Below the pieces are notes generated by a model that saw nothing but the letters and a program-made list of their open reading frames with translations, had not been told where the DNA came from and searched no databases. From NCBI GenBank assembly GCA_031271905.1, contig JAISUT010000023.1:1-64000 (forward strand): a DNA stretch of 64,000 bases, given 5' to 3'. This DNA is from Acidobacteriota bacterium. GTDB lineage: Bacteria > Acidobacteriota > UBA6911. Every line of letters begins with the position of its first letter. Position 1 is the first letter of the stretch. Shown piece by piece: positions 2,277 through 62,880 of the stretch. The position numbers were made by a program, and so were the translations under genes.

Positions 2277-2297
2277 TCGCTGCAATAAAATGCTTTG

Positions 2298-2418
2298 GGG
2301 GGCATCTAAAAAGCTCGCAGACAAGGTGTCGCCGCAGATCGAAAAGCGGAGTTTACCAAGGTAAATGAGCATTTTCGATCAAGGCGCAACGCAGCGTCCG
2401 GGGTTTTTAGAGGTCCCC
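2298..2418 (+). repeat. MITE copy A (about 121 bp)
   Basis: Full-length copy with the family layout: left end ending CATCTAAAAA, body GCTCGCAGACAAGG, a central inverted pair (CGAAAAGCGG...TTTACC / GGTAAATGAGCATTTTCG), then GCGTCCGGGG and right end TTTTTAGAGG. The ends have drifted to runs of G and C but remain complementary. No clear target duplication. It sits in the leader of the cluster mRNA. Confidence 0.85.
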
Positions 2419-2432
2419 CACAGGGAGATCAA

Positions 2433-3005
2433 GTGGAAAGTTCTGACTCCTCCTGGATAACAATGTTCGTCTGTACCAACTGTGCGAGGCCGGGGGCGGC
2501 GTCCACCTCGTCCCGGCGCGCACGTCCCTCGGTCCCCGACTTCGGCCTGCCGGGGCGCGTCGACCAGATCGTCATCCCCTGCGCCGGGCGCATCCAGCCC
2601 GAGCATGTCCTGAAGGCGCTGGAGGCCGGTTCGGACGTGGTGGCCGTCGTCGCCTGCGAGGAGGGGAACTGCCACTACTCCGAAGGCAGCCGCCGCTGCG
2701 CGCTCCGCGTGGAGCACATCGGCTCCCTGATCGAGGAGATCGGCCTGGGCGAAGGGCGGCTGGTGCTCGCCCATCTGCCGGGAACCGCCGTCGAGGACAT
2801 GCTGCTGACGGCCGAGCCGGGGAGTAAGATCGAGCCGCCGGACGCCGCGGCGCTCGACCAGAAGGTCGGCGCGGTGCGCGACCAGGTGCTGGAAGCCCTG
2901 CGCATCGTCCCCGCGAACCCGCTCGCGGCGGCGCAAAAGCCCGCCGCCCAGAAGCCTGCGGGGAAAAAGGTGGCGAAGGCGAAAGAAGAAGGGGGGCGGC
3001 GATGA
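2433..3005 (+). CDS. MvhD/FlpD-type hydrogenase iron-sulfur subunit
   Basis: A 190-residue homologue of MvhD/FlpD, the small [2Fe-2S] protein that passes electrons to HdrA in heterodisulfide-reductase complexes. The family pattern is clear: CxxC (Cys14, Cys17), IPCAGRIQPEHVLKAL (Cys50), and VACEEGNCHY (Cys75, Cys80) followed by Cys89. Residues after about 160 form an Ala/Lys-rich basic tail not typical of the family. The GTG start at 2433 has AGGGAG 6 nt upstream; an ATG at 2463 is possible but has a poorer site and starts inside the first conserved strand. The stop overlaps the metF start (ATGA). It is first in the cluster with metF, glutamate-synthase genes, hdrA and metV, implying an electron-transfer role between these enzymes. 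Confidence 0.88.
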   Translation: MESSDSSWITMFVCTNCARPGAASTSSRRARPSVPDFGLPGRVDQIVIPCAGRIQPEHVLKALEAGSDVVAVVACEEGNCHYSEGSRRCALRVEHIGSLIEEIGLGEGRLVLAHLPGTAVEDMLLTAEPGSKIEPPDAAALDQKVGAVRDQVLEALRIVPANPLAAAQKPAAQKPAGKKVAKAKEEGGRR

Positions 3006-3892
3006 ACAAGCTCTGTCAGGCGCTGAATTCGTGCAATTTCCTGGTGACGGCGGAATGCCTCCCCCCCGTCGGCGCGGACGCGGCGGCGGTGCTTGAGACC
3101 GCGGCCAAGCTGCCGGAACGGCTGGACGCCATCGTGCTGCCGGACAACCCCGACCGGATACGGCTCTCCGCGTTCGGCGCGGCGACGTTGCTGCGCAAGG
3201 AGAGGAACGCGACCGTCATCATGGCGATGACCGCGCGCGACCGCAACCGTTGCGGCCTGATGAGCGACGCCTTGGGCGCGGCCGCCGTCGGCATCTCCGG
3301 CATCCTCTGCGCCAGTGGCAACCACCAGTCGCTGAGCATCTGCCCCCAGGCGGCGTCCGCCAACGGCGTCGATTCCGTGCAACTGGTGCAGACGCTCAAG
3401 AACATGGTGTTGCACGGCGAAGAGACCGACATCGAGACGACCGGCAAGAAGGTCAGCCTCCAGATCGGCGCGCTGGTCCAGCCTTATTTGGAGCCGCTGG
3501 AGCTGAACCTCATCCGGGTCAAGAAAAAGGTGGCAGTGGGCGCGGACTTCCTCCTGACCCAGGCGGTCTTCGACGTCGCCGGTTTCGAGAAATGGATGGC
3601 CGCCGTCCGCGAGGCGGGCCTGGACAAGCGTACCGTGATCCTCCCCAGCGTCCTCGTCCTGGACAGCGCGGAAAAGGCGCGCAAGCTGCAAGCGCTCCGG
3701 ACCTACGGGACGATCGGCGAGGAGGTCGTCAACCGCGTCGCCGACGCCGCCGACCCCGCCAGGGAGGGGGTCGCGCTGGCGGCGGAAATCGCCGGGAAGG
3801 TGAAGCAGGTTCCGGGCATACGCGGGATCCACCTCCTCTGCGGCGGTTGCGAGGAGCTGGCGGGGGAAGTCGTCAAGCTGGCCGGACTGTAG
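3002..3892 (+). CDS. metF: methylenetetrahydrofolate reductase MetF
   Basis: A 296-residue TIM-barrel protein of the MTHFR family, which reduces 5,10-methylene-THF to 5-methyl-THF (or the reverse) with FAD or FMN. Family features: LVTAECLPP at the N-terminus, TARDRNR near residue 78 and GADFLLTQAVFD near residue 180. It is translationally coupled to the MvhD gene by a 4-bp overlap, and the locus ends with metV, the zinc-containing partner subunit. In acetogens MetF and MetV act with HdrABC and MvhD homologues, so the pairing is meaningful. Here the additional partners are glutamate-synthase subunits. Cytoplasmic; no membrane segment. Confidence 0.92.
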   Translation: MNKLCQALNSCNFLVTAECLPPVGADAAAVLETAAKLPERLDAIVLPDNPDRIRLSAFGAATLLRKERNATVIMAMTARDRNRCGLMSDALGAAAVGISGILCASGNHQSLSICPQAASANGVDSVQLVQTLKNMVLHGEETDIETTGKKVSLQIGALVQPYLEPLELNLIRVKKKVAVGADFLLTQAVFDVAGFEKWMAAVREAGLDKRTVILPSVLVLDSAEKARKLQALRTYGTIGEEVVNRVADAADPAREGVALAAEIAGKVKQVPGIRGIHLLCGGCEELAGEVVKLAGL

Positions 3893-3895
3893 GGG

Positions 3896-3928
3896 CGCGC
3901 CGCGCCCGGGGTTTTTAGGGGTTTCCGA
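3896..3928 (+). repeat. solo right end of the MITE family
   Basis: CCCGGGGTTTTTAGGGGTTTCC matches only the right terminus of the 120-bp element. It fills most of the 48-bp gap between metF and the next gene and may be a relic of an old copy. Confidence 0.45.
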
Positions 3929-3940
3929 GAGAGAAATAAA

Positions 3941-5422
3941 ATGCCTGACAGATACCATATCAAGACAGTTGCGACACCCGGACGGTTCTACCGGGTCGGC
4001 AAATTCGGCGAGGTGGACTGGCGCGAAGACTGCTCGCGCTGTTTCGACTGCGTCAAGCTCAAGTGCTGCTTCGACGTCTACAAGCACGAGACGGAGCACA
4101 ACCGCGACCCGCGCACGGCCACGCAGCCCCTTTACGAATGCAAAGCCTGCATGTCCTGCGTCCAAGGATGCACCAAGGGCCTGCTGACGCTGTCGGTCAA
4201 CCCGGAATATTTGGACATGGGCGACGAGTACTGGAAGCCGGACGTCCTGTTCACCACATGGAATCAGGCCGACACCGGCAAGATACCGGTCTCCGGCGCG
4301 GGCTACCGCGGGCCGTTCCACGGCTTCGGCTTCGACTCCATCTGGACGGACATGTCCGAGATCGTGCGCCCGACGCGCGACGGCATCCACGGGCGCGAGT
4401 ACATCTCCACCTCGGTCGATGTCGGGCCCAAGCCGATGCGTCTCCAGTTCACTCCCGACGGCGCGCTGGTCGAATCGTCGCTGAAGGTGCTTGAGCTGCC
4501 GGTCCCCATCGTGCTGGACGTCCCCGCCTGGGCGGTGCGAGGCGCGGAGCTGGCCGAGGCGCGGGCGCGGGCGGCGCAGGAGCTGGGCACAATCGCCGCC
4601 GCCTATGTCGAGGACGCCGCGAAGCTGCCTGCGGAGCTGCTCGCGTCGGTCGCGCCGGTCGTCGGCTGCGCCGATGTCTCCAAGCCGGGCAAGCAGGCCG
4701 AGGGGGCGCTCAAGGCCGCGAAGCTGGTGGAGCTGCTCGACGGGACGGACGATGAGGTCGCCAAGGCGGTCGAAGCCCTCGCCGCCCTGAATCCCCAGGC
4801 AATCCCCGCCGTGCGCCTGACGCTGGTCCCCGGCGTGTACGGGCGCATCGTCGAACTGGCGAAGCGCGGCGTCAAGGTGTTCCACCTGTGCGCCGACCCG
4901 CACGGTTGCGAGGTTTTGAAGGGGGGCGCGCAGGGCCGGCACATCAAGGATGCCATACGGGAGACGCACGGGAAGCTGGTCGAGGCGGGCATCCGCGACG
5001 AGGTCACGCTGATCGTCTCCGGCGGCATCGCGCTGGCCGAGCATATGGCGAAGGCCATCATCTGCGGCGCGGACGCGGTGGGCGCGGACACGGCGCTCCT
5101 GGTGGCGCTCGGCTGCCGGGTCTGCGCGGGGGCGCACGCGCTTTCCGTCCACGGGGGGGCGAAAGACGGCGCCGCGCCCTGCCCGGACTGCCCCGCGGAC
5201 GGCGTGCTCGCCAAGGCGACGGAAGACCTCCAGTACGCCGCGCAGCGCATGGTCAACCTCATGGGGGCGTGGCACAGCCAGTTGATAGAAGTATTGGGCG
5301 CGATGGGCATCCGCGAGGTGCGCCGCCTGCGGGGCGAGATGGGCCGCGCGATATTCATGGAAGACATCGAGAAGGACGCCTTCGGCGACTTGGAGCAAGT
5401 CCCCGAGGAAGTCAACGCATAA
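3941..5422 (+). CDS. ferredoxin-linked glutamate-synthase-like subunit (divergent FMN domain)
   Basis: A 493-residue protein. The N-terminus holds two ferredoxin-type cysteine clusters (Cys31, 34, 37 with 42/43; Cys67, 70, 73, 77). The C-terminal half resembles the glutamate-synthase FMN barrel: VTLIVSGGIALAEHMAKAIICGADAVGADTALL (given here in two parts: VTLIVSGGIALAEH and ICGADAVGADTALL), then several Cys (GCRVCAGAH, CPDCP) where GOGAT has its 3Fe-4S site. The middle, about residues 180-290, is Ala-rich and lacks the GGGMSFGS and KPGLGG motifs present in the next gene, so substrate binding is probably altered. It lies 15 bp upstream of its paralogue. I infer an electron-transfer or structural paralogue rather than a complete catalytic subunit. 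The start has GAGAGA upstream. Confidence 0.75.
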   Translation: MPDRYHIKTVATPGRFYRVGKFGEVDWREDCSRCFDCVKLKCCFDVYKHETEHNRDPRTATQPLYECKACMSCVQGCTKGLLTLSVNPEYLDMGDEYWKPDVLFTTWNQADTGKIPVSGAGYRGPFHGFGFDSIWTDMSEIVRPTRDGIHGREYISTSVDVGPKPMRLQFTPDGALVESSLKVLELPVPIVLDVPAWAVRGAELAEARARAAQELGTIAAAYVEDAAKLPAELLASVAPVVGCADVSKPGKQAEGALKAAKLVELLDGTDDEVAKAVEALAALNPQAIPAVRLTLVPGVYGRIVELAKRGVKVFHLCADPHGCEVLKGGAQGRHIKDAIRETHGKLVEAGIRDEVTLIVSGGIALAEHMAKAIICGADAVGADTALLVALGCRVCAGAHALSVHGGAKDGAAPCPDCPADGVLAKATEDLQYAAQRMVNLMGAWHSQLIEVLGAMGIREVRRLRGEMGRAIFMEDIEKDAFGDLEQVPEEVNA

Positions 5423-5437
5423 GGGACGGTTATCGAA

Positions 5438-7009
5438 ATGGCGAATGCAAATGTTTTAGAGGGGACCCCGCACGAGGCCGGCCGCAGCTCCTGGCCGCAG
5501 GAGAAGGTGGAGCGCAAGGTCGCGCCCGCGCCCGACAGGTACCGTAACGCCATCGGCAAGTACAAGATCTACCGGTCGGCGGCCTGCAACTCCTGCGGGC
5601 GGTGCGTCCAGGTCTGCAAGTACGGCGTCCACAAGAAGCCCAAGGGCTACGCGCTGACGCTGCGCCCGGAAGACCACCTGTGCGTCGGCCCTGCCTGTTC
5701 CGAGCAGGGGGAGATGTGCGTGGCAGCCTGTCCGCAGAAGGCGCTGAAAATCCGGCTGAACCCCAACGCCGACGCCATGGGCGACCCGCGCTGGACGAGC
5801 GACCTGATCATCTCGAACTGGTACCAGGCCGAGACCGGGCACACCCCGCCGGACTATTTGCAATACCGCCACGGCGAGTCGGGCGGGGGCTTTGACAAGA
5901 TCCGCTTCAAGTTCGAGGTTCCCGGCACCGGCTACACGCCGCCGGAGCCCGTCCCGACGGAAGCCATCGACACGGGCTTGGACCTGAACCGCAGCGGCGA
6001 CGGCAGGCCGCAGGTGCATATCGACATCCCGCTCTACGGCGGCGGGATGAGCTTCGGCTCGGTCAGCATCTACACCATCTTGGCCAAGGCGCGCTCGGCG
6101 GCGGCGTGGAACACCTTCAGCTGCACGGGTGAAGGCGGCTACCCCGACCGGCTCATGCCCTACGACGACCACATGATCACGCAGGTGGCGACCGGCCTGT
6201 TCGGCGTGCGCGAGGACACCATCAAGCGCGTGCGCATCGTCGAGTTCAAATACGCGCAGGGCGCCAAGCCCGGCCTGGGCGGGCACCTCCTGGGCGACAA
6301 GAACACGCCGGAGGTGGCGCGGATGCGCGGCGCGGTGCCGGGCAACGCCCTGTTCAGCCCGTTCCCGTTCCACAGCGTCTACAGCGTCGAGGACCACAAG
6401 AAGCACCTCGACTGGATCAAAGAGGTGAACCCCGACTGCCTGGTCAGCGTGAAGGTCTCCACCCCCACCGACGTGGACATGGTCGCCGTCGGGAGCTATT
6501 ACGCCGGGGCGCACATCATCCACTTGGACGGCAGCTACGGCGGCACGGGCGCGGCGCCCGACATCGCCAAGAAGAACATCGCCATGCCCATCGAGTACGG
6601 CATCCCCAAGGTCCACAAGTTCCTCGTGGCCGAGGGGATCCGCGACAAGGTCACGCTCATCGCCTCGGGAGGCATCCGCACGGCCTACGACGCGATGAAG
6701 GCCATCGCCCTGGGCGCGGACGGCGTGGTCATCGGCACGGCGGAGCTGGTGGCGGTCGGTTGCGTGCGCTGCGCCTGTTGCGAATCGGGGCGCGGCTGCC
6801 CGCGCGGCATCGCCTCCACCGACACGGAGCTGGCCGAGCTGATGACGCTCGACTGGGCGACGCAGCGGCTCGTCAACCTGCAGAACGCCTGGCACGAGCA
6901 GATGCTCGACATCCTCTCGCGCCTGGGGATGAAGTCGGTGCGCGAGCTGTGCGGCCGGAGCGACCTGCTCTGCTATCTGGGGACGCCGGGCCAGACCAAG
7001 ACGTTGTAG
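5438..7009 (+). CDS. glutamate synthase, FMN-binding catalytic subunit (archaeal-type GltB core)
   Basis: A 523-residue protein. Residues 50-60 (Cys50, 53, 56, 60) and 82-98 (Cys82, 87, 94, 98) bind ferredoxin-type 4Fe-4S clusters. Residues 190-460 are the FMN-dependent glutamate-synthase barrel: YGGGMSFGSVS, GAKPGLGGHLLGDK, HLDGSYGGTGAAP, IASGGIRTAYDAMK and GADGVVIGTAELVAVGC, followed by the 3Fe-4S cysteines near 442-454. The barrel converts 2-oxoglutarate and ammonia channelled from glutamine into glutamate. The amidotransferase and GXGXG domains are on the next gene, as in split archaeal-type enzymes, and the NAD(P)H-side GltD is fused into the HdrA protein downstream. Confidence 0.9.
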   Translation: MANANVLEGTPHEAGRSSWPQEKVERKVAPAPDRYRNAIGKYKIYRSAACNSCGRCVQVCKYGVHKKPKGYALTLRPEDHLCVGPACSEQGEMCVAACPQKALKIRLNPNADAMGDPRWTSDLIISNWYQAETGHTPPDYLQYRHGESGGGFDKIRFKFEVPGTGYTPPEPVPTEAIDTGLDLNRSGDGRPQVHIDIPLYGGGMSFGSVSIYTILAKARSAAAWNTFSCTGEGGYPDRLMPYDDHMITQVATGLFGVREDTIKRVRIVEFKYAQGAKPGLGGHLLGDKNTPEVARMRGAVPGNALFSPFPFHSVYSVEDHKKHLDWIKEVNPDCLVSVKVSTPTDVDMVAVGSYYAGAHIIHLDGSYGGTGAAPDIAKKNIAMPIEYGIPKVHKFLVAEGIRDKVTLIASGGIRTAYDAMKAIALGADGVVIGTAELVAVGCVRCACCESGRGCPRGIASTDTELAELMTLDWATQRLVNLQNAWHEQMLDILSRLGMKSVRELCGRSDLLCYLGTPGQTKTL

Positions 7010-7075
7010 GGAGCGCAAGCCTATCGCAAGCCTTTGGGACGCTAATTTTGGAGTTTGCACAGAAGGACTAACGAA

Positions 7076-9694
7076 GTGAACGACATCGCTGAAAGAATAT
7101 TGGCAACCAGATCCCAGGTCTATTCCCGTCCGGCGACGCCGACGGAGGCGAAGGCCGCCGAAGAAGGCGGTTGCGGCGTCACGGGCTTCGCCTGCACCAT
7201 CCCCTTGGCGGGGCGCTTCATCTACGAGCCGTCGGTGCAGATGCAGAACCGCGGCAACGGCAAAGGGGGCGGCATCGCCGCCGTCGGCCTGACCCCGGAG
7301 CAGATGGGGGTGCCGCGCGAGGTGCTGGACGACGCCTACCTCTTGCAGATCGCCCTGCTCGACCCGTCGTGCCACGCCGAGCTCGAACGCAAGTTCGTAT
7401 TGCCCGACTTCGATGTCGTGACCTCCGTCCGGCAACCCCATGTGAAGGACTACCGCGACGTTCCGGGCTTGGAGGTCTGCCCCCCGGACGTGCATCGCTA
7501 CGTCGTGCGGGTGAAGCCCGACAAGCTGAAGAAGTTCGCCGAGGAGTCGGGGCTGGGCGGGCTCTCGCCGCGCGAGCTGGAAGACGAGTTCGTCTGGCGC
7601 AACTCCTACCGCCTGAACGACGAATACTACGCCTCGCTCGGCGAGAAGCGGGCCTTCGTACTCTCGCACGGGCGCGACCTGCTGGTCTTCAAGCTGGTCG
7701 GCTACGCCGAGCAGAACGTGGAGTATTACCAGCTCGAGGACTTCAAGGCCCACGCCTGGATCGCCCACCAGCGCTACCCCACCAAGGGGCGCGTCTGGCA
7801 TCCGGGCGGCGCGCACCCGTTCGTCGGCTTGAACGAGGCGCTGGTGCACAACGGCGACTTCGCCAACTACTATTCGGTCTGCGAGTACCTGAAGCAGCGC
7901 AACATCCGCCAGCAGTTTTTGACCGACACCGAGGTCTCGGCGCAGCTCTTCGACCTCTGGGACCGCGTCTACAAATATCCGCTGGAGTACATCATCGAGG
8001 CGCTGGCGCCTACGACCGAGCTGGACTTCGACCAGCTCCCGCCTGAGAAGCAGGCGGTCTACCGGCAGATACAGGCGACGCACATCCACGCCTCGCCCGA
8101 CGGGCCGTGGTTTTTCATCATCGCCCGCAGCCAGCCGGACAAGAAAAAGATACAGTTGCTCGGCATCACCGACACCGCCATGCTCCGCCCGCAGGTCTTC
8201 GCGCTGCAGGACAACGGCGACGTGCAGATCGGCCTGATCTGTTCCGAGAAGCAGGCCATCGACGCGACCCTGCGCAGCCTCGCCAAGGAGGACATGCGCT
8301 TCTGCCCCGTGGCCGACCGCTACTGGAACGCGCGCGGCGGCTCCAGCACCGACGGCGGCGCGTTCGTCTTCACGGTGGGCGAAAACGGCGACGGGAAGAA
8401 GAAGATGACCTGCACCGACAAGTTCGGCCGCGAGGTCAAGCTCAACATCGGCAGCGTGCGTTGCGACAACCTGTCGGAGGAAGACGAGAAGGCTGAAGCG
8501 CCGCAAGAGCTGAAGGACAAGGTGGACGGCTGGCTCCGGCAGGGCGCGCCCGCCGGGGTGGACGCGATCTTCCAACACGCACAGGGGCTCCCCGACTGGA
8601 AGGCGGGCGACCTGAAGCGGTTCTGCCGCCTGATCGTCGATGGCGCGACGGACGCGGCGACCATCGCGACGGCCGTCGAGGCGCTGACGCTGTTGCGCGA
8701 CCGCCGCTTCTATTACGGCGACAAGCGGCGCGCGACCGTCATCCGCGTGTTCAACATCATGCTGGCCAGGCTGTTCGACAAGGCGCCGCTCTTCGGCGGG
8801 CCGGCGTCGGGCTACTGGCGGCGTGTGAACCTGGCGACGCGCGACCTTCTGGCCGCGCCCGCGGCCGACGAAGAGGTGCTGGTCATCGACGCCGAGGGCT
8901 TCCCGCCCGAAGGGGACGGTTGCGACGCGGTGCTGATGTGCAAGGCGCACCAGCTCGGCTGGCGGCGCTTCATCGTCTACCGCCTGCGCGGGCAGCGCTT
9001 CCACGGCGCGGGGCTGGGCTTGGAGACGGGCGATGTGCGCATCGACCTGTACGGCTCCAACGGCGACTACACGGCCAGCGGCATGGACGGCTTGCAGCTT
9101 TACATCCACGGCAACGCGCAGGACCAGGTGGCGCAGATCGCCAAGAGCGGCAAGCTGGCGATTTACGGCGACGTGGGGCAGACGTTCATGTACGGCGCGA
9201 AGGGGGGCGACGTCTACGTCCTCGGCAACGCGGCGGGGCGGCCCCTGATCAACGCCGTGGGGCATCCGCGCGTGGTCATCAACGGCACCTGCCTCGACTT
9301 CCTGGCGGAGTCGTTCATGGCGGGCGACCCCTTGGCGGGCGGCGGCTTCGTGGTGCTGAACGGGATGGAGATGGACGGGCACGGGCGGCTGGTGACGCAG
9401 GCGACCCCCTATCCGGGGAGCAACCTTTTCTCGCTGGCTTCGGGCGGCGCGATCTACGTCCGCGACCCCAAGCGGCAGGTGACCGAGCGCCAGCTCAACG
9501 GCGGCGTGATCTCGCCGCTGACCGACAAGGACTGGCAGTTGATCCTCCCCTACTTGGAGGAGAACGAGCGGCTGTTCGGCATCAGGGTGCAAGACCTGCT
9601 GACGGTCGATGGCGCGGTCAAGGCACCGGGCGAGGTCTACCGCAAGGTGAGCGCCGTGACGCTCTCCGTCCTCGCCGGCAGCAAGAAGAAATAA
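7076..9694 (+). CDS. glutamate synthase glutamine-amidotransferase + GXGXG subunit
   Basis: An 872-residue fusion of two modules that are separate in many split glutamate synthases. The N-terminal class II amidotransferase has GGCGVTGF with the likely nucleophile Cys33, MQNRGNGKGGG, HQRYPTKG, VHNGDFANY and TDTEV, and would release ammonia from glutamine. The C-terminal part (about residue 640 on) is the GXGXG beta-helix typical of GltB, with IYGDVGQTFMYGAKGGDVYV. Cys33 is preceded by 32 residues, so an N-terminal propeptide must be removed if the usual N-terminal Cys mechanism applies. I use the GTG at 7076, which has AGAAGGA 8 nt upstream, rather than the TTG at 7055. Confidence 0.88.
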   Translation: MNDIAERILATRSQVYSRPATPTEAKAAEEGGCGVTGFACTIPLAGRFIYEPSVQMQNRGNGKGGGIAAVGLTPEQMGVPREVLDDAYLLQIALLDPSCHAELERKFVLPDFDVVTSVRQPHVKDYRDVPGLEVCPPDVHRYVVRVKPDKLKKFAEESGLGGLSPRELEDEFVWRNSYRLNDEYYASLGEKRAFVLSHGRDLLVFKLVGYAEQNVEYYQLEDFKAHAWIAHQRYPTKGRVWHPGGAHPFVGLNEALVHNGDFANYYSVCEYLKQRNIRQQFLTDTEVSAQLFDLWDRVYKYPLEYIIEALAPTTELDFDQLPPEKQAVYRQIQATHIHASPDGPWFFIIARSQPDKKKIQLLGITDTAMLRPQVFALQDNGDVQIGLICSEKQAIDATLRSLAKEDMRFCPVADRYWNARGGSSTDGGAFVFTVGENGDGKKKMTCTDKFGREVKLNIGSVRCDNLSEEDEKAEAPQELKDKVDGWLRQGAPAGVDAIFQHAQGLPDWKAGDLKRFCRLIVDGATDAATIATAVEALTLLRDRRFYYGDKRRATVIRVFNIMLARLFDKAPLFGGPASGYWRRVNLATRDLLAAPAADEEVLVIDAEGFPPEGDGCDAVLMCKAHQLGWRRFIVYRLRGQRFHGAGLGLETGDVRIDLYGSNGDYTASGMDGLQLYIHGNAQDQVAQIAKSGKLAIYGDVGQTFMYGAKGGDVYVLGNAAGRPLINAVGHPRVVINGTCLDFLAESFMAGDPLAGGGFVVLNGMEMDGHGRLVTQATPYPGSNLFSLASGGAIYVRDPKRQVTERQLNGGVISPLTDKDWQLILPYLEENERLFGIRVQDLLTVDGAVKAPGEVYRKVSAVTLSVLAGSKKK

Positions 9695-9770
9695 GGCGCG
9701 GCTCGACGTTTCGCGTGTTCCGTCCGTGTGTTCCGTGTTTTTCGCGGTTTGATTTTTATGGTTTGAAACT

Positions 9771-12700
9771 ATGTCCTCTGGTTCGGAAAAAGATGGCGGG
9801 AGCGCGGCGGCCTTGGTCTGCGGCGCGGGCGCGTCCGGGGTCGAAGCGGCGCTCGACCTTGCCGACAGCGGGCTGAAGGTCTATCTCACCGACCCCTCGG
9901 CGGCGATAGGCGGCGTCGCGTCCGGGCCGGGCGCGAAAGAAGAGGGTGCGGCGGCGCTGGCCGCGCTGGCCCCCAAGCTCGAAGAGTGCGCGAACCACCG
10001 GGGCGTCGAAATCCTCACCCTGACCAGGGCCGAGGCCGTCTCCGGCGGGCCGGGCGCTTTCAAGGTCAAGTTGCGGCGCAGCCCCCGCTACGTGGACGCC
10101 GCGAAATGCACCGCTTGCGGCGATTGCGGCGCGGCCTGTCCGGTGTCGCTCCGGACGGCGGGGGGCGAGCGGACGGGGCGCAAGGCGATCGCGCTCGAAC
10201 ACCCCGGCGCCATCCCGAACGTCTTCGGCATCGTGAAGTTCCCCGGACGCACGGCGTGTACGAACGACTGCCCCGCCGGAGTCAACGTGCAGGGGCTCCT
10301 CTCCCTGTTGCGCGCCGGCAAGGTCGCGGAGGCCTACGCGCTCCTGCGCCGCCGCCAGCCGCTTCCGGCTTCGAGCGGCCGCGTCTGCCGCCGCCGGTGC
10401 GAGGACAAGTGCCGCCGCATCGACATCGACGAGGAGGCGGTGGCCATCAGGAACTTGGAGCGTTTCGTCGCGGACGCCGCGCTGGCCGGAGCCGTGACGG
10501 TGCCACGGGACGCGGCGCCGCCTAGGCGGGGCAAGCGCGTGGCCGTCGTCGGCGGCGGCCCGGCGGGGCTGACAGCCGCGAACGACTTGGCGTTGCAAGG
10601 CGTCGATGTGACCGTCTTCGAGGCGCAGGAGCGACTGGGCGGGATGCTCCGCTACGGCATCCCCGCGTGGCGGCTCCCGAAAGAGGTCTTGGACAGGGAG
10701 GTGCAGTCCATCCTCGACCTCGGCGTCGCCGTCCGCACCCGCGCCCGCGTCTCCAAGCCCAAGGCGCTGCTGGAAGGCGTGGAGCTCGGCGGGGAGCGCC
10801 ACGAGCCGTTCGACGCGGTTTTCCTGGCGACCGGCGCGTGGACACCCAAGAAGCTGGACCTGCTCGGCGAGAGTTCCAACGGGGTCTGGCAAGCGCTCGA
10901 CTTCCTGCGCATGGTGAACGGCGGGGCGGCGCCCGCCGGTGCTGTCGGCAAGAGCGTGGTGGTGCTGGGCGGCGACGACTTGGCGCTGGACGCGGCGCGC
11001 GCGGCCCTGCGTCTGCCGGGGGTGCAGACGGTGCATCTGGCATGCCTGGAAAGCTGGACGGAGATGCCCGTCGACCAAGACGAGGTCGAGACGGCGTTCC
11101 AGGAGGGCGTCGTCATCCACAACGGGCTCGGGCCGACCGGGATCGAAAAAGAGGGCGACCGGGCGGTGGCGGTGCGCTTCCGCGCCTGCATCAGCGTCTA
11201 CGACGAGCATAGGAGCTTTGATCCGATCTACGACGACGCGATGGTTTCGCGCCTGGCGGCAGACACGGTCGTCGTCGCGGCGGGGCGCGTCGGCGACGCC
11301 GGCGCCTTCGACCTTGAGACCAAGCCCGGCGGGCGCGTCTTCGTCTACCCGGAAACGGCGGCGACTTCGCACAAGGGGATATTCGCCGGAGGGGACGCGG
11401 TGCTGGGCCCGGCCTCGATGGCGGAGGCGGTGGCGGGGGGGCATCGGGCGGCGCGGGAGATTTTCGCGTACTTGGACGGCGGCGACGCGGCGGCGCAAGT
11501 CGCGGACGAAGACGATGCGGCGTTCGCGGGGGTCGCGCCCAACCCCGACCCGGACGCCGAGCCGCTGGAGCGCGCGGAGATGCCCACCGTGAGCCGCGCG
11601 GGCCGCCTGAAGCCGGACATGTCGGAGATCAACCTGGGCTACGACAAGGGACAGGCGCTCTACGAGGCCGGGCGGTGCCTGGAATGCGGGCTGTGCAGCG
11701 GTTGCATGGAATGCGTCCACGTCTGCCCCGTCGGCGCGGTGCGCCACGACGAGCGGCCCGAGGACTTGGAAATCGAGGTCGGCGGCGTCATATCGACCGG
11801 GGCGGCCTCGGCGACGGAGCGGCTCTGCCTGTCCGCGCCGGGCGTCGTCGACGCGGAAGCCGCGCCGGACGAGGCGTTCGACGCCGAATTCGCGGCAGAC
11901 GGCCAGGGCGGCGGGGTCGCGGCCGTCTCCGGCGCCGTCGTCCGGGGCGGCGCGGCGGCGGCTGAGGTCTTGCGGCAACTCGCGGCGACGGGGCGTCCCG
12001 CGACGCCGGAAGGCGACGGGGCGAAGGCGGCGTTGGTGCTGGGCGGCGGCGTGGCGGGGATGACGGCGGCGCGGAACCTCGCCGACCAAGGCTTCCGAGT
12101 GCATTTGGTGGAAAAATCCGACCGGCTCGGCGGCATGCTGCGCGGGAGGAACGCGACCCTTGACATGGAGAACGTCCCGGAATACCTGCAAGCCTTGGAA
12201 AAGGCGGTGCGCACCCATCCCAACGTGCGGCTGCACCTCTCGGCCGAACTCAGACGGACGGTGGGACGGGCGGGCGATTTCTCCAGCATCGTCGCCGCGG
12301 GCGGGGCCGACGGGGGCGACGGCAAAGGGGTCGAGGTGCGCCATGCCGTGACGGTCGTCGCCACCGGCGGGCGGGAGCGCCAGACGGAGCAGTATCTCAT
12401 AGGACGGAACCCGGCGGTGGTGACGCAGAGCCGCCTGGGCGAGATGCTGGCCGACGGCAGCCTGACGACGGCGCTGGAGGAGAAGGTCAAGCCGACCATC
12501 GTGATGATGCAGTGCGTGGAGAGCCTGACCTCGCGCTATCCGTATTGCAGCCGCGTCTGTTGCGCCCAGGCGCTGGGCAACGCCTTGGAGGTCAAGAGCC
12601 TCCTGCCGCATTCCGAGATCGTGGTGCTGGGCGGGGAGCTGCTGGCGCACGGGGCGGAGGAGACGGCGTACCAGAAGGCGCTGGAACGGCGCGTCCGCTT

Positions 12701-13091
12701 CATCCGCTATTCCGGCACCGACCGCCCGGAGGTGGGCGAGGAGGGGCGAAAGCTGCTGGTGCGGGTGCATGACGCCGACATCGGACGGGGCCTGGTGATC
12801 TACCCCGACCTTTTGGTGCTTTCGACCGGCATCGCCCCGGCGCTGGACAACCCGGCGCTGGCGCGGACGCTGGGCGACCGGCTTTCGACCGACGGCTTTT
12901 TCATGGAGGCGCATCCGCGCCTGCGCCCGGTCGATTCGGGCAACGAGGGGGAGTTCGTCTGCGGTTGCGCGCGCGCCCCGCAGTTCATCCGGGAGGCGGT
13001 GGCCGACGCGCGGGCGGCGGCGGCGCGGGCGGCGGCGGCGTTGCGCAGGGCCGGGGGCGCGTCGAGCGCAAAAATGTCCCATTGCCCCTAA
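9771..13091 (+). CDS. HdrA-GltD fusion oxidoreductase
   Basis: A 1106-residue flavo-iron-sulfur fusion. Order: a Rossmann-like start (residues 12-50); 4Fe-4S motif Cys113-116-119-123; GltD-type N-terminal cluster (Cys163, 167, 206, 210, 214); GltD FAD site GGGPAG (261-266) and a second nucleotide-binding fold around 395-410; FAD closing motif GIFAGGDAV (537-544); six clustered Cys at 636-652; then an HdrA FAD site GGGVAG (758-763) and the HdrA signature QCVES...YCSRVCC (Cys914, 926, 930, 931). GltD feeds NAD(P)H electrons to glutamate synthase; HdrA is the flavin-bifurcating centre of heterodisulfide reductases. Fusion of the two implies direct coupling. HdrB/HdrC are not in the window. One uninterrupted frame, no sign of frameshift. 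Confidence 0.85.
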   Translation: MSSGSEKDGGSAAALVCGAGASGVEAALDLADSGLKVYLTDPSAAIGGVASGPGAKEEGAAALAALAPKLEECANHRGVEILTLTRAEAVSGGPGAFKVKLRRSPRYVDAAKCTACGDCGAACPVSLRTAGGERTGRKAIALEHPGAIPNVFGIVKFPGRTACTNDCPAGVNVQGLLSLLRAGKVAEAYALLRRRQPLPASSGRVCRRRCEDKCRRIDIDEEAVAIRNLERFVADAALAGAVTVPRDAAPPRRGKRVAVVGGGPAGLTAANDLALQGVDVTVFEAQERLGGMLRYGIPAWRLPKEVLDREVQSILDLGVAVRTRARVSKPKALLEGVELGGERHEPFDAVFLATGAWTPKKLDLLGESSNGVWQALDFLRMVNGGAAPAGAVGKSVVVLGGDDLALDAARAALRLPGVQTVHLACLESWTEMPVDQDEVETAFQEGVVIHNGLGPTGIEKEGDRAVAVRFRACISVYDEHRSFDPIYDDAMVSRLAADTVVVAAGRVGDAGAFDLETKPGGRVFVYPETAATSHKGIFAGGDAVLGPASMAEAVAGGHRAAREIFAYLDGGDAAAQVADEDDAAFAGVAPNPDPDAEPLERAEMPTVSRAGRLKPDMSEINLGYDKGQALYEAGRCLECGLCSGCMECVHVCPVGAVRHDERPEDLEIEVGGVISTGAASATERLCLSAPGVVDAEAAPDEAFDAEFAADGQGGGVAAVSGAVVRGGAAAAEVLRQLAATGRPATPEGDGAKAALVLGGGVAGMTAARNLADQGFRVHLVEKSDRLGGMLRGRNATLDMENVPEYLQALEKAVRTHPNVRLHLSAELRRTVGRAGDFSSIVAAGGADGGDGKGVEVRHAVTVVATGGRERQTEQYLIGRNPAVVTQSRLGEMLADGSLTTALEEKVKPTIVMMQCVESLTSRYPYCSRVCCAQALGNALEVKSLLPHSEIVVLGGELLAHGAEETAYQKALERRVRFIRYSGTDRPEVGEEGRKLLVRVHDADIGRGLVIYPDLLVLSTGIAPALDNPALARTLGDRLSTDGFFMEAHPRLRPVDSGNEGEFVCGCARAPQFIREAVADARAAAARAAAALRRAGGASSAKMSHCP

Positions 13092-13187
13092 GTTTAAGCG
13101 GAGGGGCGGTGCCGCCACGGCGGGCTTGATTTCACGGGATGAAAGGCTTTAACTTACTAAGAAAGCGCAGGAAGAAAGAGAAAGACT

Positions 13188-13856
13188 ATGATAGTAGCCT
13201 CACCTAAATCCGTAACGGAACTGAAAAACATCATCGCGGGCCACAAGAAGGTCTTGTTCGCGGGTTGCGGCACCTGTGTGACGGTGTGCCTGGCCGGCGG
13301 CGAGCGCGAAGTCAGCATCACGGCCTACGCCGTGCGCATGGCGTGCCGCTTGGACAAGAACCCGATCGAGATCTCGCAGGTCACCATCGAGCGCCAGTGC
13401 GACAACGAATTCCTGAAGGAGCTTGCCGAGCCGGCCTCGCAAGTGGACGCCATCCTCTCGTTCGGCTGTGGCGCGGGGGTGCAGGCCATCGCCGAGCGCT
13501 TCCCGAACCTGCCGGTCTACTCCGCGCTCAACACGCAGTTCCTGGGGGTGTTGGAGGGGCAGGCGACTTGGACGGAGAAGTGCATCGGGTGCGGCGACTG
13601 CGTGCTCGCGCATTTCGGCGGCATCTGCCCGGTGACCCGTTGCGCCAAGCGCCTCTTGAACGGCCCCTGCGGCGGCTCGCTCAAGGACCGGTGCGAGGTC
13701 GCGCCCGACAAGCCCTGCGCATGGCAGTTGATTTACGAGCGCCTGAAGGGCATCGGCCAGCTCGACCGCTTGGAAGAGGTCGTTCCCCCGAAGGACTGGA
13801 GCACCGCTTGGTACTCCGGCGCGCGCAAGATCGTCCGCAAGGAACACCAGGTGTAG
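13188..13856 (+). CDS. metV: MetV, methylene-THF reductase C-terminal-domain protein
   Basis: A 222-residue cysteine-rich protein of the MTHFR_C (MetV) family, the partner of MetF in acetogenic and related anaerobes. Motifs: FAGCGTCVTVC (Cys27, 30, 34), CDNEF, FGCGAGVQ, CIGCGDC, then CPVTRC, GPCGG and CEV/CAW towards the C-terminus, giving zinc and Fe-S ligands. Start ATG follows an AGGAAGAAAGAGA stretch. It is the last gene of the cluster, about 95 bp after the HdrA-GltD gene, and a strong hairpin follows its stop. Confidence 0.9.
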   Translation: MIVASPKSVTELKNIIAGHKKVLFAGCGTCVTVCLAGGEREVSITAYAVRMACRLDKNPIEISQVTIERQCDNEFLKELAEPASQVDAILSFGCGAGVQAIAERFPNLPVYSALNTQFLGVLEGQATWTEKCIGCGDCVLAHFGGICPVTRCAKRLLNGPCGGSLKDRCEVAPDKPCAWQLIYERLKGIGQLDRLEEVVPPKDWSTAWYSGARKIVRKEHQV

Positions 13857-14332: not shown

Positions 14333-15046
14333 ATGAGAAAGGTACAAGGATTGATTGTGCTGGCGATCATACTGATGGTCGCCGGCATCGTTCAGGCCGC
14401 TCCGATAGACGATGGCGCGGCACTGAATGCCAAACTCAACGAGCTTTTTGTCGGCGGCACCCACCATGTTGACACGGCTTCGCCTGATGCTGGTGGCAAC
14501 GCATGGGAGGTATCCTATAATGGGATGCAAACCACGCTGGCTTTTTATTCGTCGGGGTATGCAGGGGCGACATTCGGCATATACTCCGGCGGCGTTTCAC
14601 AGGTGATTTTTTCTGGCACCAGCCCGCTTCGCAGAGCCGTTGTTTGGACTTCGGGAGATGGTACGGCCAGCCTGATTGAGTACCAAGACAATGGCGACAT
14701 CGTCACAATTCAAACGGGCATCGCCATCGACATGACCAATTTCGGGTTCTACGTGGTTCTGGATAATGGTACCAGGCTTAATTCCATCGGCACCGACAAC
14801 ATGCTCGCATATCAGGGAGATAACGATGCCGGGGATCATTGGGCCGCCAACAACGGTCTTTTTGCGACTGCCGATTATCTGTTGACGTGGGACATGTCGG
14901 GTACCGGGTATTACAACGAATATATCGTGTCCGCCGAATCCATCGCCCCCGCATCCTCCACCGTGCCGGAGCCTTCCAGCGTGTTGTTGCTGGGCGGCGG
15001 CCTGCTCGGCTTGGGGATCGCCGGTTATCGCAAGATCCGCAAATAG
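14333..15046 (+). CDS. PEP-CTERM sorting-domain exported protein
   Basis: A 237-residue exported protein. Residues 1-22 are a signal peptide (MRKVQG, hydrophobic core, VQA cleavage). The C-terminus has the PEP-CTERM signal: VPEP, then a Leu/Gly-rich membrane span, then YRKIRK. Such proteins are cut and anchored by an exosortase and are usually linked to exopolysaccharide and biofilm. The middle is a beta-rich domain with no catalytic motif I recognise. Start ATG has AAAGGGAGG with 8-nt spacing. Base composition is less GC-rich than the neighbours. Expression is likely sigma-54 dependent. No exosortase gene is in the window. Confidence 0.88.
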   Translation: MRKVQGLIVLAIILMVAGIVQAAPIDDGAALNAKLNELFVGGTHHVDTASPDAGGNAWEVSYNGMQTTLAFYSSGYAGATFGIYSGGVSQVIFSGTSPLRRAVVWTSGDGTASLIEYQDNGDIVTIQTGIAIDMTNFGFYVVLDNGTRLNSIGTDNMLAYQGDNDAGDHWAANNGLFATADYLLTWDMSGTGYYNEYIVSAESIAPASSTVPEPSSVLLLGGGLLGLGIAGYRKIRK

Positions 15047-15172
15047 TGAGAAGTTGCGGCGACGTTGAACGCTGGTCGCTCCCGTTTGCACAGGCGGGGC
15101 GCGACCGGCGAAGCAAGGCAGCAAGCAGCAATAGGCAGTAATCGCATACCCAAATTTAGTGAAAACCCTGTT

Positions 15173-15212
15173 ATCGGCGGGCGTCACCCTTGGCGCCCGC
15201 CGATTTCATTTT
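15173..15212 (+). terminator. intrinsic terminator of the PEP-CTERM gene
   Basis: A perfect 11-bp stem (ATCGGCGGGCG at 15173-15183 with CGCCCGCCGAT at 15194-15204), 10-nt loop, followed by TTCATTTT. It closes the transcription unit about 130 bp after the stop. Confidence 0.8.
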
Positions 15213-15328
15213 GGGGTCGCGAAAACGGACTGCCACTGCCAAAGGCGGCGCGGCTCGAAGCTTTGGAAGTTGCCGCAAGAATAGTATGATAAGCCTGTCG
15301 GCGGCTCAGGACGTCGCGGCGGGGAACG

Positions 15329-16135
15329 GTGGTCGGACTCTCGGAGTGGAAAGTGCACATCATAGGCGCGGCGCTCAGCGATCGGGGAAAGGTCAGGTCT
15401 TCGAACGAAGACTCCTTTGTCGCCGATGTCGGAGGTGCCGTGTTCCTGGTCGCCGACGGCATGGGCGGCCACGCCGCCGGGGAGGTCGCCAGCCACCTGA
15501 CGGCGAAGGCGGCGGCGGAGGCCTTGGCGGGGTGCGCCCCCGGACTGGCGCCGGCGGGGCGGTTGCAAGCGGCGGTGCGTCAGGCGAACGAACAGGTCTA
15601 CGGCGAGCAGGAGCGGGCACCGGAGTGTCGCGGCATGGGGAGCACGCTGACCCTGTTGACGTTCGACGGCGACGGCTACCACCTCGCGCAAGTCGGCGAC
15701 TCGCGAGCCTACCTGTTCCGAGACGGCGAACTGCGCCAGCTCTCCCGCGACCATTCCGTGGTCTGGCCGTTGTACGAGGCCGGCGACATCTCCAAGGACG
15801 AACTCGCGAAACACCCCAGGAAGCACCTGGTCACGCGCTGCATCGGCACGCACCCCGATGTCGATGCCGACCTGTATGACGGGCCCGTGCGGGAAGGGGA
15901 CATGTTCCTGCTCTGCTCCGACGGGCTGACGGACGTTCTGACCGACGGCGAAATCCAATGCGTCCTGAGGCGGTGCGGACACAACCCGAAGAAGGCATGC
16001 AAGGATCTAGTCCGGGCCGCCAACGATGGCGGCGGCCCCGACAACGTCACCGTCGTGGTCGTCGCGGCGGATGCGGGCAAACCCCGGGCGCGCTCTTCCC
16101 TCCACGCGAAGATCGCGTCCGCGTTCCGGCTGTAG
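15329..16135 (+). CDS. PP2C-family protein serine/threonine phosphatase
   Basis: A 268-residue PPM/PP2C phosphatase. Metal- and phosphate-binding motifs are all present: RSSNEDSF, VADGMGGHAAGE, GSTLTLL, QVGDSRAYLFR, LSRDHS, CSDGLTDVLTD and DNVTVVVV. Such soluble enzymes reverse Hanks-type Ser/Thr kinase phosphorylation; no kinase gene is adjacent. The GTG at 15329 is used here; a GTG at 15353 has GGAG at better spacing and would remove eight residues without touching the domain. Monocistronic, convergent with the next gene. Confidence 0.9.
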   Translation: MVGLSEWKVHIIGAALSDRGKVRSSNEDSFVADVGGAVFLVADGMGGHAAGEVASHLTAKAAAEALAGCAPGLAPAGRLQAAVRQANEQVYGEQERAPECRGMGSTLTLLTFDGDGYHLAQVGDSRAYLFRDGELRQLSRDHSVVWPLYEAGDISKDELAKHPRKHLVTRCIGTHPDVDADLYDGPVREGDMFLLCSDGLTDVLTDGEIQCVLRRCGHNPKKACKDLVRAANDGGGPDNVTVVVVAADAGKPRARSSLHAKIASAFRL

Positions 16136-16145
16136 GACGCCTTGT

Positions 16146-16206
16146 GGGAACCTCAAAACCCCGGATACTGCATTGCGCCTTGTCTGCGAACTTTTCAGAT
16201 GTTCCC
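16146..16206 (-). repeat. internally deleted MITE (61 bp) with 4-bp target duplication
   Basis: Starts GGGAACCTC and ends GTTCCC, reading the family element in reverse (CCCCGGATACTGCATTGCGCC), but lacks the central part: the deletion runs between two copies of CGCCTTG in the full element. It is flanked by TTGT on both sides (16142-16145 and 16207-16210), evidence that it moved or inserted as a transposable unit. Confidence 0.8.
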
Positions 16207-16226
16207 TTGTGAGGGCGCGACCGGCG

Positions 16227-16643
16227 CTATTCCCCGATGATCTTCACCAGCACGCGTTTCTGGCGCATCCCGTCGAACTCTCCGTAGAATATCTGCTCCC
16301 ACGGGCCGAAGTCGAGCCGCCCCTCCGTGACCGCGACCACGACCTCGCGCCCCATCACCGTGCGCTTCAGGTGGGCGTCGCCGTTGTCCTCGTAGCCGTT
16401 GTGCTCATACTGGTCGTAGGGCTTCTCCGGCGCCAGCTTCTCCAGCCAGCGTTCGAAGTCGCGGTGTAGGCCGCCCTCGTTGTCGTTGATGAACACGCTG
16501 GCGGTGATGTGCATGGCGTTGACCAGGCACAGCCCTTCGCGGACGCCGCTCTCGGCGAGCGCCGTCTCGACCAGCGACGTGATGTTGACGAACTCCCGCC
16601 GCGTCCGGGTGCGGAAGCCGAGTTCCTTGCGATACGATTTCAT
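16227..16643 (-). CDS. YjbQ-family protein (UPF0047)
   Basis: A 138-residue protein of the YjbQ/UPF0047 family, a small beta-rich fold for which a weak thiamine-phosphate-synthase activity has been reported in some members; the true role is unclear. Family motifs [21 protein letters not shown] and [13 protein letters not shown] are present. I start at the ATG (complement 16641-16643) because GGAGG sits 6 nt upstream; the ATG at 16649 would abut that site and a GTG further up is unlikely. Confidence 0.88.
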
Positions 16644-26082: not shown

Positions 26083-26202
26083 CCGGCATGGGTGAAACTA
26101 AGCATCGAACCCAGCGCCAAACCAACAAGGTTCCCACAAGACATACGGAACCATACGAAACGCTAGTTGTAAGATTACACCTCCATTCAGCTTAGTATGA
26201 TT

Positions 26203-26325
26203 GGGAACCTCTAAAAAGCTCGCAGACAAGGCGTCGCCGCAGATCGAAAAGCGGGGAGTTCGCTGAGGCGAATGAGCATTTTCGACCAAGGCGCAACGCA
26301 GCGTCCGGGGTTTTTAGAGGCGCCC
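26203..26325 (+). repeat. MITE copy C
   Basis: Full copy from GGGAACCTCTAAAAA (26203) to TTTTTAGAGGCGCCC (26325), with the central arms. TGAT lies one base before the left end and directly after the right end, a probable shifted 4-bp duplication. Confidence 0.87.
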
Positions 26326-26484
26326 TGATGTCGAACGGGCAATTTCCACGGCACCGCCCGTTCTTTTGTATTAAAATGAAGGTGTTTTGCGGCGCGTGGC
26401 GAGACGGCCCCGCTTCCGTCTGCGGGGGGCATGCCGCGCCCGCAGCGCCTGATCGGCAACCTTCGGCTTGGGGAATTCGGCGAT

Positions 26485-29263: not shown

Positions 29264-29297
29264 CGTATCCGCCCCCATGCCGCCCGCCTTGAATTAT

Positions 29298-29416
29298 GGA
29301 ACCTCTAAAAACCCCGGATACTGCGTTGCGCCTTGGTCGAAAATGCTCATTTACCTCAGTAAACTCCGCTTTTCGACCTGCGGCGACGCCTTGTCTGCGT
29401 GCTTTTTAGAGGTTCC
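29298..29416 (-). repeat. MITE copy D inside the his operon
   Basis: Full reverse-orientation copy from GGAACCTCTAAAAA to TTTTTAGAGGTTCC. Flanks are TTAT on the left and TCAT on the right (after the final C), a 3-of-4 match. The right flank contains the hisH stop codon, so insertion was at the very end of hisH. Confidence 0.88.
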
Positions 29417-29417
29417 C

Positions 29418-30041
29418 TCATTTTGCGATGCCGAGGAAGTTCCGCAACAGCCGCTTGCCGTTATCCTGGCTCTTCTCGGGATGGAACTGCGCGCCGAACA
29501 CCTTCCCCCTGCCCGCGACGGAGCAGAAGCGCCGCCCGTAGTCGGTCCAGGCGAGCGCGTCGGCCTCGTCGACGGGGGAGACGTAGAAGGAATGCACGAA
29601 ATAGAAGTAGCTCCCGTCCGGGATGCCTTCGAGCAGCGGCGCAGGTTGGATGCCTTCGAGCTGGTTCCAGCCGATGTGCGGCACCCACAGCCCCGGCACA
29701 TCGAATTTCGTAACGTTACCCGGAATCAGATCCAGCCCGTCGTGGCTGCCGAACTCCTCGCTGTGCGTGAAAAGAAGCTGCAATCCGAGGCAGATGCCCA
29801 GCAGGGGCGTCCCCGCCGCCGCCGCCTCGCGGACGGCCTCGTCCATGCCGGTGCGCCGCAGGTTCTCCATAGCGTCGCCGAACGCGCCCACCCCCGGCAG
29901 GATCAGCCGGTGCGCCTTGCGCACCGCGTCGGGGTCGGCCGAGACCAGCGGCTCGCCCCCCACCGACGCCAGCGCCTTCTCGACGCTGCGCAGGTTGCCC
30001 ATGCCGTAATCGATGATGATGGTCTTGCCGTCGTCTGCCAC
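29418..30041 (-). CDS. hisH: HisH, glutaminase subunit of imidazole-glycerol-phosphate synthase
   Basis: A 207-residue class I glutamine amidotransferase: nucleophile Cys in GICLGLQLLF, His/Glu in FHPEKSQ, plus LILPGVGAFGDAM and WVPHIGWNQL typical of HisH. It gives ammonia to HisF, whose gene is not in the window. It starts with GTG one base after the hisB stop. Its own stop lies directly against a MITE. Confidence 0.94.
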   Translation of the reverse strand: MADDGKTIIIDYGMGNLRSVEKALASVGGEPLVSADPDAVRKAHRLILPGVGAFGDAMENLRRTGMDEAVREAAAAGTPLLGICLGLQLLFTHSEEFGSHDGLDLIPGNVTKFDVPGLWVPHIGWNQLEGIQPAPLLEGIPDGSYFYFVHSFYVSPVDEADALAWTDYGRRFCSVAGRGKVFGAQFHPEKSQDNGKRLLRNFLGIAK

Positions 30042-52495: not shown

Positions 52496-52507
52496 AAGAC
52501 CACTTCA

Positions 52508-52626
52508 GGAAGCCTCTAAAAACCCCGCCGACAAGGCGTCGCCGCAGGTCGAAAAGCGGAGTTCGCCGAGGCGGACGAGCGTCTTCGACCAAGGCGCAAC
52601 GCAACGCCCGGTTTTTAAAGGTTCCC
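52508..52626 (+). repeat. MITE copy E with 4-bp target duplication
   Basis: Full copy from GGAAGCCTCTAAAAA to TTTTTAAAGGTTCCC with central arms. Flanked by TTCA on both sides (52504-52507, 52627-52630). Lies between two convergent genes. Confidence 0.87.
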
Positions 52627-52674
52627 TTCACAAAGAATATGGCGGAATAAGACCTGCCACGGCGGAACGCGGCG

Positions 52675-61088: not shown

Positions 61089-61167
61089 GGAGCCCGCCAA
61101 CCCGGCGTGCAGCGTTTTTAACGCCTTGGCGTTCCACGGGGCGCGAGGCGTCCGGCGCAACGATTAT

Positions 61168-61288
61168 GGGAGTCTCTAAAAACCTCGCAGACAATGCGTC
61201 GCCGCAAGTCGAAAAACGGAGTTTGCCGAGGTGGATGAGCATTTTCGACCAAGGCGCAACGCAGCGTCCGGGGTTTTTAGAGGTTCCC
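61168..61288 (+). repeat. MITE copy F with 4-bp target duplication touching a start codon
   Basis: Full copy from GGGAGTCTCTAAAAA to TTTTTAGAGGTTCCC, flanked by TTAT on both sides (61164-61167, 61289-61292). The right duplication contains the A and T of the ATG of the next gene, and AGAGG in the element end lies 7 nt before that ATG. Confidence 0.9.
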
Positions 61289-61290
61289 TT

Positions 61291-62595: not shown

Positions 62596-62755
62596 CATCA
62601 CCCCTCCGCTCTGCGTTTCCCGTATCCGCGCCAACCCCGCGCATCGCTCCTCATATATCTAACGAACGAGTCGCGATTTGGGCAACTGTTTTTGCCAGAA
62701 AAATGCAAAAAACTGGAGAAGGCGTATTTTTTGTGGGAAATCGTCCGCGCGTAAA

Positions 62756-62878: not shown

Positions 62879-62880
62879 TG

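Follow-up and report, generated by a model that had tools for sequence, protein, structure and literature searches.

The window analysed here, the first 64,000 nucleotides of contig JAISUT010000023.1 from an Acidobacteriota bacterium, contains seven adjacent genes on one strand that combine the parts of a split glutamate synthase (GOGAT) with homologues of MvhD, MetF, MetV and HdrA. Glutamate synthase is a main point at which nitrogen enters metabolism, and it is normally driven simply by NAD(P)H or ferredoxin. The reading to which we give somewhat better than even credence is that the cluster specifies a modular, split glutamate synthase fed with electrons through MvhD, and that the copy in the window would not carry out flavin-based electron bifurcation. 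If correct, a glutamate synthase built on Hdr, MvhD and MetV parts would join nitrogen assimilation, in many anaerobic phyla, to the energy-saving machinery of acetogens and methanogens. The arrangement is widespread and apparently, if provisionally, undescribed: in the open full-text literature (subscription papers lay outside this scope) we found no description of the cluster, of a bifurcating glutamate synthase, of HdrA-GltD proteins with GOGAT, or of MvhD/MetF/GOGAT clusters. An earlier interpretation of the same DNA (the original prediction) had likewise known of no system with this full content.

Catalytic core of the predicted glutamate synthase

All seven open reading frames (ORFs) proved to be intact and to lie on the same strand where the original prediction had placed them (Table 1), with intergenic distances that range from a 4 bp overlap at mvhD/metF to a spacing of at most 97 bp and a third-position G+C of 0.87-0.95, as in coding sequence. 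GltS2 aligns with Azospirillum GltB through the GEGG loop, the AQGAKPGxGG and GTGAAP motifs and the [3Fe-4S] cysteines C442, C448 and C454, and so possesses both the flavin mononucleotide (FMN) synthase motifs and the iron-sulfur ligands that characterize GOGAT. GAT has the attributes of a class II glutaminase, namely the nucleophile Cys40 behind a putatively cleavable leader of 39 residues, and conserved HQRYPTKG, HNGD and TDTE motifs. With these motifs intact, the best reading is that the locus encodes a glutamate synthase with predicted glutamate-forming activity. Apart from gltS1 and gltS2 the host genome has no clear glutamate synthase gene; a third PF01645 match stands at the cut-off.

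Split archaeal-type glutamate synthases and bacterial GltB/GltD have in common with this core the glutamine amidotransferase, FMN/[3Fe-4S] and GXGXG domains and the catalytic motifs. The present cluster differs from both in an extra, degenerate subunit with a ferredoxin domain, GltS1, and in the use of MvhD/MetV or an FAD_binding_4 enzyme where a simple GltD would be expected. Eight conserved cysteines of GltS1 make up a two-cluster ferredoxin domain, and the family has an invariant motif of its own, WTDMSEIVRPTRDGIHGRE. Its FMN domain is recognizable only in the C-terminal third (PF01645, 53 bits), and a fold model of moderate confidence resembles GltB and the IMPDH/GMPR barrel. GltS1 is probably the electron-input subunit.

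Open frames of ~2530-2550 residues containing a gltS1-like match occur in genomes G379, G415, G525, G569 and G474, possibly representing gltS1, gltS2 and gat fused into a single protein. One congener (G104; contig C20, locus L048) has a second, distant gltS1-gltS2 copy beside its main cluster.

Conservation across phyla and possible exchange of input modules

A scan with gltS1, taking one genome per species, returned at least 563 relatives, the best 80 of which were examined for phylum and neighbourhood. These best 80 include Acidobacteriota, Actinomycetota, Myxococcota, Planctomycetota, Chloroflexota, Bacteroidota, Ignavibacteriota, Verrucomicrobiota, Fibrobacterota, Armatimonadota, Omnitrophota, Hydrogenedentota, Sumerlaeota and Desulfobacterota, among others, and relatives in at least 12 phyla share the cluster. 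Its complete form is mvhD-metF-gltS1-gltS2-gat-hdrC-hdrB-HdrA/GltD/HdrA-mvhD-metV; in 25 genomes metV was found slightly outside the stretch first retrieved. Of the 48 loci of the best 80 with enough flank, 33 have hdrB and hdrC after gat and 38 have an Hdr module. Seven congeners retain mvhD-metF-gltS1-gltS2-gat and, further on, metV; the Hdr fusion and second mvhD are also present in four and both are absent from the other three. When 247 genomes were drawn evenly from one other phylum, gltS1 was found in 71, the commonest order there being mvhD-metV-metF-gltS1-gltS2-gat, with no Hdr genes.

Partners were counted by pooling all samples and taking loci with at least 3 kb upstream, about five congeners being counted twice. 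Upstream of gltS1, 111 of 122 loci have mvhD and 10 have a gene for an FAD_binding_4/Fe-S oxidoreductase; no locus has the two together, and a single locus has neither. Downstream, gltS2 is found in 119 of 119 loci and gat in 118 of 119. The loci usually include metF and/or metV too. The conserved co-occurrence proposed as a check in the original prediction is therefore evident, and its refuting case, homologues scattered near an ordinary gltD, was looked for and the opposite seen, a single conserved unit. Synteny across phyla rules out a chance or scattered neighbourhood. On the strength of these counts, and because five loci (L183, L184, L185, L198 and L200) have mvhD-metV-gltS1-gltS2-gat without metF, MvhD is the glutamate synthase's constant partner, and MetF is optional; the same five loci indicate that MetV may work without MetF. 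That MvhD and the oxidoreductase are mutually exclusive, as expected if they feed the same site, suggests that they are interchangeable input modules on one enzyme, and makes the question of electron input directly testable.

Variants with the oxidoreductase in place of MvhD are loci L041, L046, L043, L188, L192, L194, L195 and L232-L236. Others carry a NuoF-like gene (L124, 16552-21365; L075, 16561-21950; and L218); in L124 the ORF next to it combines ferredoxin domains of NuoG type with an HdrA domain, and a long ORF of similar kind is found in L075. L075 and L124 resemble the benzoyl-CoA reductase complexes, in which a catalytic enzyme is likewise mounted on an HdrA-based module having two flavins with a bifurcation signature; the catalytic part here is glutamate synthase instead.

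A MetF subfamily without the catalytic aspartate

Asp120 and Glu28 of Escherichia coli MetF are catalytic. Their equivalents in the window protein, denoted MetF*, are Asn107 and Glu18, so that of these two residues of methylenetetrahydrofolate reductase (MTHFR) the aspartate is missing and the general acid is kept. This difference is systematic: the Asp120 equivalent is D in 0 of 43 MetF proteins from HdrA-linked clusters (having been replaced by Y, T, N, R, F, A, H, Q, M or S), as against 34 of 37 from metV-metF clusters. The Glu28 equivalent is kept in both cluster types and is E in 63 of 70 metF-only homologues. A quick tree separated the MetF proteins without Asp from a clade (support 99) in which the metV-metF type is joined by the host genome's canonical MetF. 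According to the match lists, each of the HdrA-linked genomes searched encodes a further MetF outside the cluster, and all of those that align cleanly have the aspartate; G319, a genome of the metV-metF type, has no other MetF. The other MetF of the host belongs to a complete HdrC-HdrB-HdrA(GltD, 1511 aa)-MvhD-MetV-MetF cluster of Moorella type on contig C7 (L141, 7438-15972), with bifurcation residues intact in the HdrA domain examined.

Because the aspartate is lost and HdrA-linked genomes encode another MetF, reduction of methylene-tetrahydrofolate (methylene-THF) by MetF* is doubtful, and MetF* is probably no longer a true MTHFR. The missing residue and the canonical cluster elsewhere in the genome both speak against the original prediction, which had included methylene-THF reduction in the coupled reaction. 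Members of the Asp-less subfamily would be misannotated in metagenome studies as the MTHFR of the Wood-Ljungdahl pathway.

Reduction of the HdrA/GltD fusion in the window

The accessory genes of the cluster are the same set as in the Hdr-type MTHFR, HdrCBA-MvhD-MetVF, of Moorella thermoacetica and Sporomusa ovata, and Sporomusa pull-downs have shown that MvhD, MetV and MetF bind HdrA (PMC9430772). Moorella HdrA, moreover, matches the full-length relatives of the window fusion in HdrA-GltD-HdrA order and in length. Compared with that enzyme, the present cluster adds the glutamate synthase core and has a MetF without the catalytic aspartate, and in the window copy HdrBC, half of one HdrA, the C-terminal ferredoxin domain and the E/K residues discussed below are missing as well; hdrB and hdrC, which belong to the Hdr-type MTHFR cluster, are absent from the window locus and present in the C7 cluster. 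HdrA proteins with an inserted GltD are already known, as Moorella HdrA (PMC9430772), HdrL (PMC2702500) and type III HdrA (PMC12054007). The fusion noted in the original prediction thus had its domain content read correctly, albeit in a shortened protein, and cannot count as a novelty. In the descriptions consulted, HdrL of Desulfobacterium autotrophicum (PMC2702500) and type III HdrA (PMC12054007) accompany genes of dsr, of formate dehydrogenase or of hydrogenase and not of a glutamate synthase.

The window fusion is laid out as an N-terminal half of HdrA1 (residues 1-150), a GltD-like region (155-600), an Fe-S region (636-652), a junction predicted to be disordered (678-751) and the flavin adenine dinucleotide (FAD) domain of HdrA2 (755-1092). 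It has the GltD insertion in an HdrA backbone that typifies HdrL and type III HdrA, without their complete HdrA FAD domain(s) and C-terminal ferredoxin domain. Its length is 1106 residues, compared with ~1480-1510 in full-length relatives, in which both the C-terminal half of HdrA1 and the C-terminal ferredoxin domain are present; relative to them, the second MvhD next to the fusion, hdrC and hdrB have also gone from the locus. The NAD(P) motif, GGGNVA in relatives, reads GGDDLA. E356 and K409 (M. thermolithotrophicus numbering) serve in the literature to distinguish bifurcating from non-bifurcating HdrA flavins; both are glycine in the window, making this the sole domain of 62 examined that has neither. 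Every other HdrA domain tested carries E and K (with one R), and the pair is conserved in both TrxR domains of the full-length relatives. Identity of the fusion to its relatives is 48-53%, as against 64-67% among those relatives, and GltS2, GAT and MetV exhibit no comparable acceleration. All Fe-S cysteines and FAD motifs are kept.

Because E356/K409 and several domains are lost, the NAD(P) motif is altered and evolution is faster, the window fusion is very probably non-bifurcating, which contradicts the bifurcation that the original prediction had thought possible at this locus; to judge from its sequence, the protein is one of relaxed or changed function. Frameshift or assembly error is an unlikely source of the truncation: a ferredoxin domain would not fit into the 97 bp before metV, and there are several losses, each independent of the others. 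Since hdrB and hdrC follow gat at most of the loci counted above, the absence of HdrBC from the window is a local loss. The original prediction was right that these genes are missing between gat and the fusion, and the new electron donors it deduced from this are not implied; a complex designed without HdrBC and with new donors is rejected for the family, most full-length relatives having HdrBC.

Proposed electron flow and alternative explanations

The electron routes, substrates and complex formation in the following scheme are what we infer from the observed gene content, conservation and losses of residues and domains. GAT would free ammonia from glutamine and GltS2, with its FMN and [3Fe-4S] cluster, would convert 2-oxoglutarate to glutamate, while electrons would enter through the two-cluster ferredoxin domain of the degenerate paralogue GltS1. 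These would reach GltS1 via the [2Fe-2S] adaptor MvhD, probably aided by the Fe-S protein MetV and, here, MetF*. In full-length relatives the Moorella-type HdrC-HdrB-HdrA(GltD)-MvhD unit of the cluster would pass electrons of NAD(P)H to MvhD, and glutamate formation would be the exergonic branch of flavin-based bifurcation, in the role played in acetogens by methylene-THF. For the window genome, the likelier sources would be ferredoxin or NAD(P)H, with no bifurcation involved, or else the intact HdrC-HdrB-HdrL-MvhD unit on C7. Bifurcation coupling appears plausible in the full-length relatives, which have retained HdrBC, E/K in two HdrA domains, the ferredoxin domain at the C-terminus and an intact NADP motif, and unlikely in the window copy.

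Several considerations weigh against an MvhD-fed glutamate synthase of this kind. The host genome encodes glutamate dehydrogenase, so that glutamate synthase may be non-essential, and an ordinary GltB is also present in many cluster-bearing genomes. Physical contact between GltS1 and MvhD is deduced solely from gene order. One lost aspartate is no proof that MetF* is inactive, Glu28 and the general flavin-site motifs remaining, and the MetF of metV-metF clusters looks catalytically normal, so that a real metabolic link is possible there.

A sub-case of the MvhD-fed reading, whose probability overlaps with it, is that the HdrA/GltD fusion is a remnant being lost in the genus, leaving mvhD-metF*-gltS1-gltS2-gat-metV as a working unit fed directly by ferredoxin. 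We regard this as a real possibility while leaning against it: three congeners have exactly this six-gene form, and the window fusion has undergone relaxed evolution and domain loss, yet its 1106-codon ORF remains open with high third-position G+C, Fe-S cysteines and FAD motifs, because of which the fusion is probably still expressed. More tentatively, the full-length cluster of at least 12 phyla might be a bifurcating glutamate synthase that oxidizes two NAD(P)H and directs one electron pair to glutamate and the other to ferredoxin, with MetF* as a relay derived from a reductase and the window copy as its secondarily reduced, non-bifurcating descendant. Such an enzyme would save energy that ordinary GOGAT wastes.

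It is rather unlikely that the locus encodes two separate anabolic enzymes, an MTHFR and a glutamate synthase, uncoupled from one another and sharing an operon and an MvhD/Hdr electron supply. Retention of the aspartate in most metV-metF clusters and the lack of another MetF in G319 are in accord with such a pair, as is the binding of MetVF to MvhD and HdrA (PMC9430772); the window, however, is of the other type, its MetF* lacking the aspartate and falling outside the canonical MetVF clade of the quick tree, with a second, canonical MetF in the genome. The original prediction, in which a single bifurcating complex of this organism links the formation of glutamate to NAD(P)H, ferredoxin and the reduction of methylene-THF, we now consider improbable. 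Conservation of the seven-gene unit and the features kept by full-length relatives agree with it, but the window has glycine at both diagnostic positions, a GGDDLA motif, no HdrA1 C-half, ferredoxin domain, second MvhD or HdrBC, and a MetF without the MTHFR aspartate, and three congeners have dropped the Hdr fusion altogether.

N-methylglutamate synthase, too, has split subunits, which are homologous to these. That GAT-GltS1-GltS2 is a related amidotransfer enzyme of this type, tied to C1 metabolism through the adjoining MetFV genes, is very improbable, given its intact glutaminase and glutamate synthase motifs, its position as the sole clear GOGAT candidate in the genome, the many loci without MetF, and FAD_binding_4 versions with no C1 genes nearby.

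Host genome and surrounding sequence

The host genome (3.4 Mb, 99.8% complete) has Acidobacteriota metagenome-assembled genomes as relatives. It encodes the acetyl-CoA synthase beta subunit, and for this reason the Wood-Ljungdahl pathway is probably present. Among the accessory proteins, MvhD1 has invariant Cys14, Cys50, Cys75 and Cys80 (102-104 homologues), and MetV is among the best-conserved proteins of the cluster within the genus, with 81-83% identity to congeners. No sigma-54 promoter was found upstream of the operon, matches across the window being no more numerous than expected by chance. A sigma-54 activator gene (~602 aa; 14829-16634, Pfam-checked) lies near the cluster in congener L035, and ORFs of similar length occur in L037, L038 and L040; nitrogen regulation through this activator gene of congeners is possible.

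Table 1. Cluster genes and inverted-repeat copies in the window
Feature	Position	Strand	Description
mvhD1	2433..3005	+	190 aa; MvhD/FlpD-type [2Fe-2S] electron-transfer protein; PF02662, 85 bits
metF*	3002..3892	+	MTHFR-fold flavoprotein of divergent subfamily; PF02219, 72 bits
gltS1	3941..5422	+	2x[4Fe-4S] ferredoxin domain and degenerate glutamate synthase FMN barrel; PF01645, 53 bits
gltS2	5438..7009	+	FMN/[3Fe-4S] glutamate synthase domain with N-terminal ferredoxin domain; PF01645, 301 bits
gat	7055..9694	+	Class II glutamine amidotransferase and GXGXG domain; PF13522, PF01493
HdrA/GltD/HdrA fusion (reduced HdrL-type)	9771..13091	+	1106 aa
metV	13188..13856	+	222 aa; Fe-S partner protein of MetF; PF12225 (DUF5981/MetV), 126 bits
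Inverted-repeat copy	2297-2419		
Inverted-repeat copy	26202-26326		
Inverted-repeat copy	29296-29418		
Inverted-repeat copy	52507-52627		
Inverted-repeat copy	61167-61289		
Inverted-repeat copy	62755-62879		

The window also contains copies of a dispersed, short inverted-repeat element, resembling a miniature inverted-repeat transposable element or a repetitive extragenic palindrome, with ends like GGTTTTTAGAGGTTCCC set ~120 bp apart. Ends of this type number 14 in the window, against 0.13 expected, and 175 genome-wide, against 0 in the control. One copy (the first in Table 1) ends 14 bp before the start of mvhD1.

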